From: a bacterium
GTDB lineage: Bacteria > UBA9089 > JAHJRX01
DNA: 57,102 nucleotides
Direction of reading: 5' to 3'
Assembly: GCA_018830565.1 (NCBI GenBank)
Contig: JAHJRX010000020.1
Span: forward strand, 1-57,102
Position 1 is the first letter of the stretch, and every line of letters begins with the position of its first letter. The notes below the pieces were generated by a model. The model was not told where the DNA came from. It ran no database searches and worked only from the letters and a program-made list of their open reading frames with translations. Of this stretch, positions 7,640 to 32,892 are shown in pieces. Both the position numbers and the translations under genes were made by a program.

Positions 7640-7714
7640 GCTGGCGTAGCTCAATGGTAGAGCAGCGGTTTTGTAAACCGCAGGTTGCGGGTTCAATTCC
7701 CATCGCCAGCTCCA
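7640..7714 (+). tRNA. tRNA-Thr (anticodon TGT)
   Basis: Complete cloverleaf: acceptor GCTGGCG pairs with CGCCAGC, the anticodon stem GCGGT/ACCGC encloses TTTGTAA, and the T arm contains GTTCAATTC. CCA is encoded. It is nine bases upstream of tRNA-Tyr. Confidence 0.96.
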
Positions 7715-7722
7715 ATATAAAA

Positions 7723-7808
7723 GGGGAGATACCCTAGTGGCCAAAGGGATCAGACTGTAAATCTGACGGTGTATACCTTCGGAGGTTCAAATCCTCCTCT
7801 CCCCACCA
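7723..7808 (+). tRNA. tRNA-Tyr (anticodon GTA)
   Basis: Long-variable-arm tRNA of 86 nt with encoded CCA. Acceptor GGGGAGA pairs with TCTCCCC, the anticodon loop is CTGTAAA inside TCAGA/TCTGA, and the variable arm is about GGTGTATACC. Confidence 0.96.
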
Positions 7809-7833: not shown

Positions 7834-8226
7834 ATGACAGAAAACAAAAAAACAAAGGTCTTAGTAGTGGATGATGAAATTGATATCCTACGTATTTTGA
7901 AAAAGGTCTTAGAGTTAAAAAATTATGAAGTCATTACTGCTTCTACAGGAAAAGAAGCTTTAGAAAGGATTAATGAAACAATAGATATCGTCTTATTAGA
8001 TATAATGCTCCCTGATCTCATGGGATATGACGTATGTGAAATAATAAAAGAAAATCCTGCCTTAAAAAAAATTCCGGTGATTATGCTCTCGGCTAAAACT
8101 CAAATGAGCGATATTAGAAAAGGTTTAGACATAGGGGTAGAAATGTATATTACTAAACCATTTGATCCTTTTAATATTCCAGAGCAATTAGAAGATATCT
8201 TACAAAGAAAAGGAGAAAAAAGATGA
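7834..8226 (+). CDS. CheY-like single-domain response regulator
   Basis: A 130-residue stand-alone receiver. The acidic pocket is VVDDEID, the phospho-acceptor Asp is in VLLDIMLPD, the switch Ser/Lys is in MLSAKTQ, and the conserved Lys-Pro is in TKPFDP. It has no output domain, so it probably acts by protein contact or as a phosphorelay step. It has a strong ribosome binding site (CGGAGGT) and overlaps the next gene, the hydrogenase-kinase fusion, by 4 bases (ATGA), which makes that kinase its likely partner. No flagellar or chemotaxis genes adjoin it. Confidence 0.9.
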   Translation: MTENKKTKVLVVDDEIDILRILKKVLELKNYEVITASTGKEALERINETIDIVLLDIMLPDLMGYDVCEIIKENPALKKIPVIMLSAKTQMSDIRKGLDIGVEMYITKPFDPFNIPEQLEDILQRKGEKR

Positions 8227-11200
8227 GTGTTGTCTACACTAAAAAAGGCAAGTGTAAGAAATGTTATAGTTGCATTCGAGGTTGTGTCGTTAAAGCTATT
8301 AAAGTCACGGAAGATCGGGCCTCTATTATAGCTAAACGTTGTATTTCTTGTGGAATTTGTTTTAATATGTGTAGTCAAGGGGTAATTCATTATAGAAATG
8401 ACCATGAAAAAGTAAAAAGGATCTTAAACAGGTTAGGTAAAAAGATAGCCATTATTGACCCTACTTTTCCAGGAGCTTTTAATGAGGCAAATGGTCGTAA
8501 AATCATCACCGCGATCAAAGAATTAGGTTTTGATGAAGTCTGGGAAGCAGCTGCGGGAGGAGAGATTGTTAATGAAAAATATCAAGAAATTCTAAAAAAT
8601 AGTCAAGCTGGAGATGCTTATATTACCACTCATTGCGCAGCCATTGTTAATCTTATAGAGATCCACTACCCCATATTATTACCTCAGTTAATTCCTGTTG
8701 TTTCTTCTATGTTTGCTACCGCTAAGATTATAAAAAAAGAAGATCCTTCGGCTATGATTGTTTATATTGGTCCTTGCTTGGCTAAAAAAGTAGAAGTAAA
8801 AGATAAAGACATCCGAAATGGCATAGAAGAAGTGATTACCTACCAAGAGTTAAAGGAACTACTGGAAGAAAAAAATATTAATTATCAAGAATTACCTCCT
8901 TCAGAAACAGATGGCTATAATGCTTCTTTTTCAAGACTTTATTTAGCTTGCGGAGGAATGGTTGCTGGCGCTTATAGCCACCCGAGTTCTTTAATCTCAA
9001 AGAATGATGTCCTTACTTTAGATGGCCCTAGAGGAATAGAAACTTTACAAGCTATGGCTGCTGGAAAAAAGGTTAAAGCTAAGATGATCGATATTTATTT
9101 TTGTCGAGGTTGCATTGATGGCCCGGCTATGGATATAGAGAAGAGTTATTTTGAAAAGAGAGAAGACGTGATGAATTACGTCCTCTCAAAAAGCCATCTT
9201 CCTGTTCCTGATTACCAGAAACTCTCAGCGGAGATTGAAATCAAAAGAAATTTCTCGAATTGGCAAACTCCTACTAAGGAAATACTTAAAAAAGAAATGG
9301 ATGAAATTCTAAGGCAGATAGGAAGATACAAAAAAGAAGATGTCCTAAACTGTGGTGCTTGTGGTTACTCCACTTGTGAAGAAAAGGCTAAATTTGTGGT
9401 CTTAGGAATTGCTTCGCCAGAATTATGCCTTCCTGCCTTAATCCATAAAATTACCAGTGAAAAAAATAAGACCATCGAGGTTGTTATTAACAGTATGAGC
9501 GATGGGGTTCTTACCATAGACAAGAATTTAAAGATAGGTGTGTTTAATGATGCCCTAGAAAAACTCTTTGGATATACCCAAGAAGAAGCATTAGGCAAGA
9601 CCTGTAAGGATATGCTTTGTCAAGATCTCGGGGATAAAGAATGTAGTTTTTATAAAGTCTTAGCTACTGGAAAACCAGTAGTTGATCATGAAAGAGAAAT
9701 CACAACTAAAGATGGTAGAAAAATTAAAATTAGCGCCAGCTTATCTCCTTTGCAGGATCTAAATGGAGATATTATAGGAGGGGTAGAGGTATTACGAGAT
9801 ATTACTCTTTTAAAAGAAATAGATAAGATGAAGTCTGGTTTTGTTTCTAACGTTTCTCATGAACTAAGAACTCCTTTAACTTCAATTAAAGGCTCGGTAG
9901 AACTTTTGCTGGGTGAAGCCGAAGGACCTGTCGGGGAAGGCCAACGGATGTTTTTAAACATCATCAAGAAGAATACGGAACGGCTGATTCGATTAATTAC
10001 TGACCTTTTAGACTTAGCTAAAATTGAATCAGGCAAGATCAAGATGCACAAAAGATTGACTGATATTAAAAATTTAACAGAAGAGGTAATTGTTTCTTTA
10101 AATCCATTATTAAAAGAAAAGAGTATCAACTTAGAAAATATAACCGAAGAAAACCTTCCGGCGGTCATGGTCGATGAAGATAGAATCAAACAAGTCTTAG
10201 TAAATTTAATCTCTAATTCCATTAAGTTTACTTCACCCCAAGGAGTTATTAAGATAAACTCTACTCAAAACTCTCAAGAGGTAGTCATTGGGGTACAAGA
10301 TAATGGAATTGGGATTGATTCTTCTAATTTCAAAAAAATATTTACTAAATTTGAAACTATAGATGTACCTGCTTCCGTACGAAGTCAAATCAAAGGAACT
10401 AACTTAGGTTTATCCATCTGTAAAAATATTATCGAAGCTCATGAAGGTAAAATTTGGGTAGAAAGCCAACTTGGACAAGGAAGCACTTTTTACTTTACCT
10501 TACCTAAATTAAAGGAAGAAGAGATAGAAATAACCAAAAAAGTTAGATTTGGAGAAAGAATAACCAAGAAAGTTTTAGTAGTCGATGATGACCACGACGT
10601 GGTGAAAGTAGTAAAATCTTATCTAATGCGGGAAGGAATGGAAGTTATCACCGCCTATGATGGAAATGAAGCCGTGAGAAAAGCCAGAGAAGAGACTCCA
10701 GACATCATTACTTTAGATATTCTCATGCCTGGAAAAAATGGCTTTGAGATTATTGAAGAACTACGTCTCTATGAAGAAACTAAATTTATTCCAGTGATTA
10801 TTATCTCTATAGTTCAGATTGATGATCAAGAAAAAATCTTTAGATTAGGGGTGGCGGACTATTTAAATAAGCCAATCGAACCGGCTAAATTAATTTCTTG
10901 CCTTAAAGATATTGAAAGATGGATCCAGTCACCGAGAAAGAAGAAGAAAATATTGCTGGTTGATGACGAAAAAGATGTCCTGACGGTAATAAGAGCACTT
11001 TTGCAAGACCACAACTATCTAACCATGGAAGCTTATAATGGTCAAGAAGCAGTGGAAATAACAGAAAAACGTAAACCTGATTTAATTATTATGGATTTGA
11101 TGATGCCAGTGATGGATGGCTTTGAAGCCATTAAAAGAATTAAATCAAATAAGAAGACGGCTCATATTCCTATTGTTGTCCTTACCGTCCGTAACTTAGA

Positions 11201-11321
11201 AGAAGACAGAATACAGGCTTTAATGTTAGGGGCCTCGGAATATTTAACTAAGCCATTTACCAAGGAGACTTTAATAAGTAAGATCAGTGATATGCTAAAC
11301 GAGGAAAAACCTGTTTTTTAA
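8223..11321 (+). CDS. [FeFe]-hydrogenase-like sensor fused to PAS, histidine kinase and two receiver domains
   Basis: A single 1032-residue protein. Order: two [4Fe-4S] ferredoxin motifs (C11/14/17/21 and C40/43/46/50); an [FeFe]-hydrogenase H-cluster-type domain with cysteines at C138 (TTHC), C185 (GPCLAKK) and C294/C297 (FCRGC), the third motif being one residue shorter than in catalytic enzymes; a further Fe-S domain starting C377 (CGACGYSTC); PAS at about 410-530; HisKA with H546 (SHELRTP); HATPase; receiver 1 with acidic pocket at 788-790 and phospho-Asp D832; receiver 2 from about D914 with phospho-Asp D958. It looks like a cytoplasmic H2- or redox-responsive hybrid kinase related to the sensory (non-catalytic) hydrogenase groups. 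Translationally coupled to the upstream receiver. That it senses H2 is inference. Confidence 0.88.
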   Translation: MSVVYTKKGKCKKCYSCIRGCVVKAIKVTEDRASIIAKRCISCGICFNMCSQGVIHYRNDHEKVKRILNRLGKKIAIIDPTFPGAFNEANGRKIITAIKELGFDEVWEAAAGGEIVNEKYQEILKNSQAGDAYITTHCAAIVNLIEIHYPILLPQLIPVVSSMFATAKIIKKEDPSAMIVYIGPCLAKKVEVKDKDIRNGIEEVITYQELKELLEEKNINYQELPPSETDGYNASFSRLYLACGGMVAGAYSHPSSLISKNDVLTLDGPRGIETLQAMAAGKKVKAKMIDIYFCRGCIDGPAMDIEKSYFEKREDVMNYVLSKSHLPVPDYQKLSAEIEIKRNFSNWQTPTKEILKKEMDEILRQIGRYKKEDVLNCGACGYSTCEEKAKFVVLGIASPELCLPALIHKITSEKNKTIEVVINSMSDGVLTIDKNLKIGVFNDALEKLFGYTQEEALGKTCKDMLCQDLGDKECSFYKVLATGKPVVDHEREITTKDGRKIKISASLSPLQDLNGDIIGGVEVLRDITLLKEIDKMKSGFVSNVSHELRTPLTSIKGSVELLLGEAEGPVGEGQRMFLNIIKKNTERLIRLITDLLDLAKIESGKIKMHKRLTDIKNLTEEVIVSLNPLLKEKSINLENITEENLPAVMVDEDRIKQVLVNLISNSIKFTSPQGVIKINSTQNSQEVVIGVQDNGIGIDSSNFKKIFTKFETIDVPASVRSQIKGTNLGLSICKNIIEAHEGKIWVESQLGQGSTFYFTLPKLKEEEIEITKKVRFGERITKKVLVVDDDHDVVKVVKSYLMREGMEVITAYDGNEAVRKAREETPDIITLDILMPGKNGFEIIEELRLYEETKFIPVIIISIVQIDDQEKIFRLGVADYLNKPIEPAKLISCLKDIERWIQSPRKKKKILLVDDEKDVLTVIRALLQDHNYLTMEAYNGQEAVEITEKRKPDLIIMDLMMPVMDGFEAIKRIKSNKKTAHIPIVVLTVRNLEEDRIQALMLGASEYLTKPFTKETLISKISDMLNEEKPVF

Positions 11322-11334
11322 GCATAAGATTTAA

Positions 11335-11410
11335 GCGGAAGTAGCTCAGTTGGTAGAGCGACAGCCTTCCAAGCTGTAGGTCGCGGGTTCGAGACCCGTC
11401 TTCCGCTCCA
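11335..11410 (+). tRNA. tRNA-Gly (anticodon TCC)
   Basis: Acceptor GCGGAAG pairs with CTTCCGC, the anticodon loop CTTCCAA lies in ACAGC/GCTGT, the T loop is GTTCGAGAC, and CCA is encoded. It starts 14 bases after the kinase stop and may be processed from the same transcript. Confidence 0.96.
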
Positions 11411-11485: not shown

Positions 11486-11968
11486 ATGGATAGAAAAGAT
11501 GAAAATAAACAGTTAATTTCTTCTAATAAAAAAGCTCTATTTGACTATCACCTTTTAGAAAAATACGAAACTGGAATAGTCCTTAAAGGGACGGAAGTAA
11601 AATCATTAAGAGTAAATGGGGCTAGTCTTCACGAGAGTTATGCTGATCTTAAAAACAATGAAGTCTACTTAATTAACTGCCATATTAGCCCTTATCAATA
11701 TGGAAATAGAGTTAATCATGACCCTTTAAGAAATAAGAAGTTATTACTCCACAAGGATGAAATAAATAAGATTTCCAGAAAAATAAAAGAAAAAAATTTA
11801 ACTTTAATTCCTTTAAAAATATATCTAAAAAATGGTCTAATTAAAGTAGAAATAGCTTTAGCCAAAGGAAAGAAATTATACGATAAAAGGGAAAGATTAA
11901 AGGAAAAGATCATAGAAAGAGAAGTAGAAAGAGAAACAAGATTTAAGATTAAATTAAGGGGGCGATAG
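11486..11968 (+). CDS. smpB: SsrA-binding protein SmpB
   Basis: Binds tmRNA and brings it to stalled ribosomes for trans-translation. The 160 residues match the family throughout: KALFDYHLLEKYETGIVLKGTEVKSLR at the N-terminus, HISPYQYGNRVNHDPLRNKKLLL in the middle, and the basic tail rich in GKKLYDKRE. The start ATG has only a weak ribosome binding site. Its last codons and TAG stop overlap the 5' end of the tmRNA gene itself by 11 bases, so protein and RNA partner are on one strand and probably one transcript. Confidence 0.96.
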   Translation: MDRKDENKQLISSNKKALFDYHLLEKYETGIVLKGTEVKSLRVNGASLHESYADLKNNEVYLINCHISPYQYGNRVNHDPLRNKKLLLHKDEINKISRKIKEKNLTLIPLKIYLKNGLIKVEIALAKGKKLYDKRERLKEKIIEREVERETRFKIKLRGR

Positions 11969-30312: not shown

Positions 30313-32892
30313 TTACTCGGTGATTACTTGATGTAAAACCTGGCTTAGTTCTTCAATCTTATATGGTTTGGTAATAAAGTTTTTGAAACCATAATTCTTA
30401 TGATCATACAAGACTGAGTTTTCAGCATAACCACTGAGGACAATAGCCTTAACTGCAGGATCAATCTTCATCAGTTCCTTGATGGTTTCTTTTCCTCCCA
30501 TTCCATCAACTATAGTTAAATCTAACAATACTACCTTAAAGGGCTTTTTAGATTCTTTAGCTTTTTTATATGCCTCAATGGCTTCTTGGCCATTTCTGGC
30601 TAACTTTACTTGATAGCCAAGATACTTAAGGAGCTCACCCGTAGTCTCCAAGACCTCTTTCTCGTCATCCATCAATAACACCCTTCCTTTTCCCTTAATG
30701 ATCTTATTTTCTTTCTTTTTAGGAATCTTTTCTTTTTCTTGACTAGCAGGTAAATAAAGATAAAAAACCGTTCCTTTATTCACCTCAGAAGTCGCCTCGA
30801 TATATCCTCCATGCCTTTTAATAATAAGATAAACAATGGAAAGTCCTAAGCCTCTTCCTTTGTCTTTAGTCGTAAAATAAGGATCAAATATCTTTTGAAG
30901 ATGCTCAACAGGTATACCGCAGCCTTGATCTTTAATAGAAACTTTTATGTAATCTCCCCTGGATAAGGGAATAGGCTTTTCTTCTTTTTCTATGGTTATA
31001 TTTTTTGCTTTAATCTCTATTTCTCCGCCATTAGGCATGGCTTCTTTAACATTAAGGATTAAGTTATTAAAAACTTGCATTATTTGTCCAGAATCGCCAA
31101 TGATAGAGTGAAGATCATCCACTATAGAGATCTTGGCCTGGATCGTAGAATCACTTAAATTAAACTTAACTACTTCTTTTACTAATTCGGAAATAGAAAC
31201 AAGGCTTTTAACCAGCCCACTATCTTTTGAGAGAGTAAAAAGCTGTGAAGTTAATTCCTTGGCTTTCAAAGATATATCTTCTATCTCAGAGAGCTTTTTA
31301 AAGATTCTATCCTCTGGCGCTAAATTTATTTTAGCTAAAGTAACATTACTTAGGATAGCCATTAAAATATTATTAAAATCATGGGCAATGCTTTCTGCAA
31401 AAAGGTAAAAGGTTTCAAGTCTTTGAGTCCTTTTTAGTTCTTCCTCTCTTTGCTGTTTTTCAGTAATATCACGAAAGACCAGGACTACGCCTACTACTTC
31501 ACCTCTCTTATTGTGAATAACTATCCCACTATCATCAAGAAGTCGATGTTTTCCATCTCGACTAATAAGCATAGTATTATTTCCTAATCTAACAATTTCA
31601 CCAGTCTGAAGTATTTTTTTTACCGGATCGGGATAACTTTCTTGAGTGTAAGCATCAACAATATTAAAAACCTGACATAGGTGTTGACCTAAAGCTTCTT
31701 TTTGAGTCACTCCACATAGCTTTAAAGCCATTCCATTGATTAAAACTATTTTGCCTTTGATATCAGTAACAATAACGCCATCGTCAATTGAACCTAAGGT
31801 AATAGCTAAGAGTTCTTTTTCAGAAGTTAAAGCTTCTTCTATTTGCTTATGTTTAGTCATATCAGTAAGAACACAAGCAAAACCTCCTATATGGCCTAAC
31901 TTATCTTTTAAGATAGAAGTAGCAAAAACTACCGGAATATTTTTATTAAGCTTTGATTTAAGGGTTACTTCATAATTCTCAAGGATTCCTCCACTATTGA
32001 GCTTATTTAACTTATTTAATAAGATATCTTTTAAATTTTCTGGAAAAATTACCTCTATCTTTTTTCCTTCTAATTCATCTTTATTATATTCTAATAAATT
32101 CAAAGCAGCCTGGTTTATAGTAACTATATTTCTCTTTTGATCTAATAAGATTAAGCCGTCACTCATCGTTGAAATAATATTATCTGCTGCCATTGCCGGA
32201 GTAATAACTAAAATTTTATACTTAACGATAACATAAGTTATTCCTAAAACCCAGATAAGGGCAAAAATATTCTCTATCTCAGGAACCCCAAGATTTAGCC
32301 TTGGTAAAATAAGATTAGTTAAAGAACCAATAAAGAGAGAGATAATGATTACGGTAACCATAACCAAGGCTTGTTTTTTTTCAATTATATTTGTTGTTCT
32401 TCTCTCAAAAATAAGAAGCAAGTAAAGACCTAGACCCATTAATAAAAAATGGTATCCATAAAAAAGATAAGGCCAGATGGAGGTTGACCACATTAATCTA
32501 TATCCATAAGGTCCTTGGCTATAATCAACGATCATAAAATTAGTAAGTTGTTTATAGATAAAGAATAAAGGCAGGGTAAAGATAATAAAGTAAAATATCT
32601 TGGTCTTTAATACCCGCTCATTTTTAGTAAAAATCAAAACAAACCATAAAAAGAAGCTACCATAACTAATTGCTCCTAAAAAAATTATTTGACCAAATAA
32701 TTTAGCCATTCCCTTTGAGGTATGAGGATGAGAAAGAAAAATTTGACCAAGACTCCATAGCGCCAAGCAGATAGTTAAGCTTAAAAATACTCTCTTAAGG
32801 GAAGATTTTGGACTTTTTACTAAAATAAAAGCAGCTAAATATAAATAAATTAAAAAAGCAAAAAAATGTAGATATGATAAAAAAAACTTCAT
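30313..32892 (-). CDS. Membrane hybrid histidine kinase (7TM-PAS-PAS-kinase-receiver)
   Basis: 859 residues. The N-terminal ~235 contain seven or so transmembrane segments of the histidine-kinase 7TM type, similar in layout to the HD-GYP protein at 384. Two PAS domains follow (from MSDGLILLDQKRNIVTINQA and GSIDDGVIVTDIKGKIVLIN). The kinase has H504 in ESIAHDFNNILMAI, the HPK4-type H box, and ATP-binding motifs DQGCGIP and GRGLGLSIV. The C-terminal receiver has MDDEKE near 742, phospho-Asp D791 (LLDLTI) and TKPYKIEE. An internal phosphorelay is likely. The signal and target genes are unknown. Confidence 0.88.
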   Translation of the reverse strand: MKFFLSYLHFFAFLIYLYLAAFILVKSPKSSLKRVFLSLTICLALWSLGQIFLSHPHTSKGMAKLFGQIIFLGAISYGSFFLWFVLIFTKNERVLKTKIFYFIIFTLPLFFIYKQLTNFMIVDYSQGPYGYRLMWSTSIWPYLFYGYHFLLMGLGLYLLLIFERRTTNIIEKKQALVMVTVIIISLFIGSLTNLILPRLNLGVPEIENIFALIWVLGITYVIVKYKILVITPAMAADNIISTMSDGLILLDQKRNIVTINQAALNLLEYNKDELEGKKIEVIFPENLKDILLNKLNKLNSGGILENYEVTLKSKLNKNIPVVFATSILKDKLGHIGGFACVLTDMTKHKQIEEALTSEKELLAITLGSIDDGVIVTDIKGKIVLINGMALKLCGVTQKEALGQHLCQVFNIVDAYTQESYPDPVKKILQTGEIVRLGNNTMLISRDGKHRLLDDSGIVIHNKRGEVVGVVLVFRDITEKQQREEELKRTQRLETFYLFAESIAHDFNNILMAILSNVTLAKINLAPEDRIFKKLSEIEDISLKAKELTSQLFTLSKDSGLVKSLVSISELVKEVVKFNLSDSTIQAKISIVDDLHSIIGDSGQIMQVFNNLILNVKEAMPNGGEIEIKAKNITIEKEEKPIPLSRGDYIKVSIKDQGCGIPVEHLQKIFDPYFTTKDKGRGLGLSIVYLIIKRHGGYIEATSEVNKGTVFYLYLPASQEKEKIPKKKENKIIKGKGRVLLMDDEKEVLETTGELLKYLGYQVKLARNGQEAIEAYKKAKESKKPFKVVLLDLTIVDGMGGKETIKELMKIDPAVKAIVLSGYAENSVLYDHKNYGFKNFITKPYKIEELSQVLHQVITE

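Follow-up and report, generated by a model that had tools for sequence, protein, structure and literature searches.

A hybrid histidine kinase with a hydrogenase-derived sensory module in genomes without matches to the H-cluster maturases: a candidate [2Fe]-free redox sensor

We analysed a window of 57,102 nucleotides from a bacterium of the UBA9089 lineage (contig JAHJRX010000020.1 of assembly GCA_018830565.1), which encodes a hybrid histidine kinase with a hydrogenase-derived sensory module (WIN, Table 1). We suggest, with a probability of roughly 0.6 and on the basis of sequence, that this kinase is a Nar1-like relative of [FeFe]-hydrogenases that lacks the [2Fe] subcluster and acts as an Fe-S redox sensor kinase. 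The preliminary description of the window had proposed a compact H2 or redox sensor; as an interpretation of WIN, H2 sensing is weakened by the absence of HydE, HydF, HydG and a second H-domain from the window's genome (G000) and from its in-phylum relatives as well as by substitutions in the [2Fe]-site pocket, and a redox sensor appears to be the favoured alternative.

Results

WIN contains a complete set of cluster cysteines and an intact hybrid kinase

Pfam searches and motif positions confirmed the domain order of the preliminary description, i.e. two ferredoxin clusters, an H-domain with C138, C185, C294 and C297, an FeS domain, a PAS domain, intact HisKA and HATPase domains and two receivers, all on one hydrogenase-derived chain that combines input, kinase and relay. 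The Fe_hyd_lg_C match scored 137.8 bits and includes all four cysteine ligands of the H-cluster; the Fer4_9 match scored 19.7 bits, which is under the cut-off of 27, and the ferredoxin cysteines (C11, C14, C17 and C21 as well as C40, C43, C46 and C50) are all present and invariant across 57 aligned relatives. The SHELRTPL box starts at residue 545, which makes H546 the phospho-acceptor. With this histidine, the N and G boxes of HATPase_c and the phospho-acceptor aspartates of the receivers, WIN has the features of a hybrid histidine kinase. Moreover, a C-terminal [4Fe-4S] domain (PF04060) followed by PAS and output domains is the layout described for sensory group C-type [FeFe]-hydrogenases (PMC13104023). 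In an AlphaFold2 model, the N-terminal 412 residues adopt a hydrogenase fold (mean pLDDT 91.5) that matches solved [FeFe]-hydrogenases with query TM-scores up to 0.70.

Genomes encoding the kinase lack matches to the H-cluster maturases

Assembly of the H-cluster requires HydE, HydF and HydG. Using family cut-offs, and with T. maritima as a positive control that scored over the cut-off each time, we found no match to HydE, HydF or HydG in G000 (1.70 Mb, 99.3% complete). The same was the case for the three in-phylum relatives that carry the kinase, G001 (98% complete), G004 (98%) and G005 (84%); three of these four genomes are near-complete (98-99%) and span two families. In each of these four genomes, the kinase gene is the sole Fe_hyd_lg_C gene. 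No Fe_hyd_lg_C gene was detected in the 15 other genomes of the phylum, and no [FeFe]-type hydrogenase partner was detected across all 19.

Outside the phylum, the same situation was observed in a closed Dehalococcoidales chromosome (L058), which encodes a kinase of this family and neither HydE, HydF or HydG nor another H-domain. This orphan kinase gene adjoins genes for a 2Fe-2S thioredoxin-like (NuoE-type) protein and a Complex1_51K (NuoF-type) protein, without hydA or hydEFG; in the same stretch (L058:6886-16751) lie genes for a sigma-54 DNA-binding domain, a sigma54-type response regulator and further receivers. A NuoE-type gene is also found near a second orphan from Chloroflexota (L050).

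The [2Fe] pocket is altered while the cluster cysteines are kept

A scan of named genomes yielded at least 564 confirmed relatives, and the family was sampled as the best 80 among the matches listed. These 80 match at 30-37% identity and have in common the module ferredoxin - H-domain - FeS. The third cysteine motif, CRGC in WIN, reads CxxC in 59 of the sampled homologues, CxxC and CxxxC being assigned by alignment column position; this bears out the earlier suggestion that the shortened motif marks a sensory lineage.

Numbering according to CpI was anchored via the hydA genes in the loci, in which A230, M353 and the VMAC stretch are all exactly in register, and the pocket was defined as the 12 second-sphere positions with conservation of 85% or more across the 56 other CxxC homologues. 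Five of the 12 are changed in WIN (A79D, S81T, P139A, P162S and L292Y), in G001 (A79D, P80S, S81T, P139S and L292Y) and in G004 (A79S, P139S, S161P, P162H and L292S); in the truncated G005 protein, nine positions could be read and one is changed (P139H). By comparison, 50 of the 56 other CxxC homologues have none of these changes. The L058 kinase has four changes in the same set of positions (A79S, P80S, M163T and L292Y) and keeps all cysteines. Similarly, all 16 cluster cysteines are kept in WIN, G001 and G004, as are all eight that are covered in G005. Relative to other conserved positions, pocket changes are enriched in G004 (p=0.012 at 85% conservation, p=0.007 at 95%) and in L058 (p=0.0125 at 95%). 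A Mann-Whitney comparison of the seven holders without maturases or another H-domain (G005 excluded) with HydG-positive holders gave p=1e-5; these proteins are phylogenetically non-independent, and this value was not relied on.

Elsewhere in the family, 6-8 pocket positions are changed and the K358 equivalent is lost in L122 and L070, and the second motif is similarly altered in L079. By their sequences, these three are further candidates for [2Fe]-free hydrogenase-derived sensors.

The hybrid architecture is specific to one phylum among the sampled relatives

In phylogenetic trees, on which the placement in a sensory group rests and from which no named HydDB group is given, the H-domain of WIN falls among sensory H-domains and away from hydA. 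The domain thus stays among H-cluster proteins, and we consider the earlier remark that it is probably not an H2-producing enzyme to be right. The four phylum members lie on one side of a branch in the best tree, with weak support (64/33).

The sampled relatives are mostly fused to a histidine kinase with an AHEINNPL phospho-acceptor box as opposed to SHELRTPL in WIN; the different box suggests that the kinase fusion in the window's phylum arose separately. Other outputs, named from sequence, are a sigma54-type AAA+ activator (L060, L062, L063, L070 and L076) and a GGDEF plus HD-type domain (L067). Contrary to the preliminary description, in which sensory hydrogenases usually signal to separate kinases, fusion of the sensory module, with its CxxC motif, to a histidine kinase on one chain is common across phyla and is already published (group C3/BfuT; PMC11406978). 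What is new is the hybrid PAS-kinase-REC-REC version (REC, receiver) at a conserved tRNA/smpB locus of one phylum: the PAS-HisKA-HATPase-REC-REC tail was found only in the four members of this 19-genome phylum and not elsewhere among the best 80 relatives. A literature search, which largely missed subscription journals, met no description of this hybrid hydrogenase architecture.

The locus is conserved between families

As previously proposed, a coupled CheY gene precedes the kinase gene. The two genes share 4 bases (ATGA) at the start of the kinase gene. The order tRNA-Thr, tRNA-Tyr, CheY, kinase, (REC-GGDEF), tRNA-Gly, smpB, tmRNA is common to the window and G004, which belongs to another family; in G001, the stretch from CheY through tmRNA has an order identical to that of the window. 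This shared gene order indicates that the locus has been inherited vertically in this phylum. The REC-GGDEF gene, the motif of which reads GGDDF, lies 3' of the kinase gene in G004 and G005 and is not at the kinase locus in the window or G001. Thus, the claim that nothing follows the kinase gene in the operon holds for the window, in which tRNA-Gly and then smpB come next, and fails for two relatives, in which this neighbour hints at a cyclic di-GMP output. Elsewhere in the phylum, further genera and families have this kinase gene with the same domain order and at the same locus, at 39-60% identity over the N-terminal part of the protein. Given this recurrence and the predicted hydrogenase fold, the architecture is not a product of chance.

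In the window, smpB and the tmRNA share 11 bases. The window also encodes another hybrid sensor kinase (7TM, two PAS domains, HATPase and receiver; 30313-32892, minus strand), which is unrelated to the hydrogenase module.

Table 1. Features of the kinase gene and its locus in the window
Feature	Residues	Position	Strand	Basis
tRNA-Thr (tgt), borders the conserved locus upstream		7640..7714	+	ARAGORN; same order in L043
tRNA-Tyr (gta), ends about 25 bases ahead of the CheY gene		7723..7808	+	ARAGORN; same order in L043
CheY-like single-domain receiver		7834..8226	+	Open reading frame, Pfam; upstream position conserved in G001 and G004
Hybrid histidine kinase with hydrogenase-derived sensory module (WIN), ATG start	1032 in total	8223..11321	+	Open reading frame, Pfam
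2x[4Fe-4S] ferredoxin domain	10-55	8250..8387	+	Fer4_9 below Pfam cut-off; 8 invariant Cys
Fe_hyd_lg_C / H-domain; ligands C138, C185, C294, C297	75-301	8445..9125	+	Pfam, alignment, predicted fold
Second-sphere residues of WIN (CpI equivalents)	D79 (A230), T81 (S232), H137 (C299), A139 (P301), S162 (P324), G183 (M353), K188 (K358), E191 (E361), Y292 (M497)			
C-terminal FeS domain PF04060; C377, C380, C385, C402	375-404	9345..9434	+	Pfam, alignment
PAS domain	426-528	9498..9806	+	Pfam
HisKA; phospho-acceptor H546	537-604	9831..10034	+	Pfam, motif
HATPase_c; N and G boxes intact	651-762	10173..10508	+	Pfam, motif
Receiver 1; D832, K883	about 784-897	10572..10913	+	Pfam, motif
Receiver 2; D958, K1010	910-1021	10950..11285	+	Pfam, motif
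tRNA-Gly (tcc), downstream border		11335..11410	+	ARAGORN; also in L042, L043, L044
smpB, syntenic anchor common to G001 and G004		11486..11968	+	Named from sequence; synteny
tmRNA directly past smpB, tag AKQELALAA		11958..12304	+	ARAGORN

Discussion

Several observations weigh against a [2Fe]-free kinase. The pocket changes in WIN and G001 are not significantly enriched (p=0.30 and 0.34, respectively, at the 85% threshold), because this branch is long and broadly diverged. K188 and E191, which correspond to K358 and E361 of CpI, are kept in WIN, G001, G004 and L058, and the IGPC loop is retained. Three apparent orphans in fragmented metagenome-assembled genomes, L050, L073 and L100, have 1, 0 and 0 pocket changes. 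Moreover, 19 of 50 sampled holders of the family have no HydG match, and 15 of these 19 still have a catalytic-type hydA; therefore, the absence of maturases from a metagenome-assembled genome is weak evidence singly, and missing maturases alone were rejected as proof for the family as a whole. Finally, in G043 (rated 100% complete) a CxxC kinase is the sole H-domain gene and hydE-hydG-hydF lie directly downstream, which suggests that this type of kinase can carry an H-cluster when maturases are present. For these reasons, i.e. the weakness of such absences, the near-intact pockets of L050, L073 and L100 and the maturases of G043, the favoured reading is limited to the window's phylum and L058 and does not extend to the whole family.

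The G043 locus itself (L046, G043:C13, 3677-7337), in which hydE-hydG-hydF lie 3' of genes for the CxxC sensor kinase and a REC-histidine kinase, may form a self-contained operon for H2 sensing, with maturases dedicated to it. In several Ignavibacteria-type genomes (L053, L059, L065, L066, L071, L082 and L089), catalytic-type H-domain genes are found beside or together with the sensor kinase, the hydA motifs being confirmed in L053, L059, L066 and L071; in these same seven assemblies we did not detect HydG, nor, in most cases, HydE or HydF. A Q325-to-H change in ignavibacterial hydA (SPHE) was considered as a marker of missing maturases and was rejected, as it is also found in HydG-positive genomes.

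If WIN were a genuine H2 sensor, a complete H-cluster would have to be made, either by maturases that the assembly fails to show or along a route not yet recognised, and binding of H2 would switch the kinase. The pocket is equivocal on this point: all four cysteine ligands and the K358 and E361 equivalents are kept, but several second-sphere positions that are otherwise conserved in the family are substituted in the phylum (the equivalents of A230, P231, S232, P301 and P324). Such changes alone do not exclude an H-cluster, since TmHydS is active despite replacement of C299, M353 and M497 (PMC10055695). Members of the family also commonly adjoin catalytic hydA, and in G043 the maturase genes accompany the kinase without hydA in the genome. 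The lack of all three maturases in three genomes of 98-99% completeness from two families, and in a fourth at 84%, together with the lack of any [FeFe]-type hydrogenase partner in the phylum and with the substitutions above, makes us regard H2 sensing by WIN as quite improbable. We also think it unlikely that the H-domain is an inert structural remnant, with sensing left to the ferredoxin clusters, the FeS domain or the PAS domain, the last by way of some unrelated ligand. PAS domains as a class accommodate many different ligands, and identity between WIN and G004 is low in the hydrogenase domain (35%) compared with the kinase and receivers (50-72%); however, none of the four in-phylum proteins has lost any of the four H-domain cysteines, and this speaks for a bound cluster and against decay. 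In a more restricted version of the favoured reading, the kinase would sense the balance of NAD(H)/ferredoxin electron transfer by contacting NuoEF/HydBC-like modules, and not free O2 or H2. This fits the NuoE- and NuoF-type genes beside the L058 orphan and the NuoE-type gene near the L050 orphan, but we identified none of this kind beside the window kinase, the neighbours of which are CheY, tRNAs and smpB, and we hold it to be a tentative and somewhat doubtful option.

Returning to the redox sensor, the odds appear slightly better than even that this lineage kept a sensory [FeFe]-hydrogenase after the loss of H-cluster synthesis and turned it into a [2Fe]-free redox sensor with only Fe-S clusters, fused to a hybrid kinase, and that the same loss occurred independently in Dehalococcoidales. 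Such a cytoplasmic hybrid histidine kinase would have a sensory module descended from a group C-type sensory [FeFe]-hydrogenase, and would probably bind four cubane [4Fe-4S] clusters (two in the ferredoxin domain, one at C138/C185/C294/C297 and the fourth in the C-terminal FeS domain) but lack a [2Fe] subcluster. Its stimulus could be the redox state or the integrity of this cluster chain as set by ferredoxin-like low-potential carriers or by oxidants (O2, NO); the NuoE- and NuoF-type genes beside or near the Chloroflexota orphans would fit the sensing of electron-carrier balance. The signal would pass from the clusters through the FeS domain and the PAS domain to the kinase, and phosphate would flow from H546 to D832/D958 and/or the adjacent CheY protein. 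Given that a REC-GGDEF gene is the last gene of the locus in sister genomes, cyclic di-GMP was plausibly part of the ancestral output.

Group C [FeFe]-hydrogenase domains are labelled putative H2 sensors in databases and papers from sequence alone, and the genomes that encode this kinase without maturase matches are a warning against doing so. If the proposal is correct, some of the group C "H2 sensors" would be independent of maturases and would sense something other than H2, and WIN may be a sensory hydrogenase that has outlived its own hydrogen-binding cofactor. Genomes with the kinase and without maturase matches or an [FeFe]-hydrogenase are a natural test case for the signal that the module perceives when it has no H2-binding site. 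They would also provide a bacterial parallel to Nar1, in which autophosphorylation of the kinase would be a simple readout for studying the loss of [2Fe].

Comparison with known systems

Among the published proteins close to WIN are the group C3 BfuT proteins of sub-type IV/V BfuABC clusters in Hydrogenedentota and Calditrichota, in which an [FeFe]-hydrogenase domain is fused to a PAS domain or a histidine kinase on one chain (PMC11406978). In our sample, two Hydrogenedentota loci (L051 and L069) have CxxC-type kinases of this family beside hydA. While BfuT is encoded beside a bifurcating hydrogenase, WIN has no such hydrogenase and no maturases, and continues into PAS-HisKA-HATPase-REC-REC. 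Group C1 of HydDB is putatively histidine kinase-linked (PMC5037454), and in Hydrogenedentota C1 proteins HATPase_c is reported and the H-cluster motifs are hardly findable (PMC11406978). Compared by description only, these proteins and WIN share a predicted histidine kinase output from a group C-like hydrogenase domain; WIN, by contrast, has recognisable cysteine motifs, and its genome yields no maturase matches.

TmHydS resembles WIN in having an H-domain with altered C299, M353 and M497 positions, a C-terminal FeS domain and a PAS domain. It differs in being amenable to artificial maturation and in turning over H2; moreover, its host has other [FeFe]-hydrogenases, and neither a fused kinase nor receivers feature in its description (PMC10055695). 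As regards the proposed cofactor state, the closest precedent is Nar1/CIAO3, an [FeFe]-hydrogenase relative that retains the [4Fe-4S]H site, lacks [2Fe] and occurs in organisms that have no maturases (PMC12621388). Nar1 is a eukaryotic cluster-trafficking factor rather than a signalling kinase, and its evolutionary origin is presumably separate; what it has in common with WIN is that the [4Fe-4S]H ligands are kept and maturases are absent, an analogy of state for which we claim homology only as regards the shared fold.

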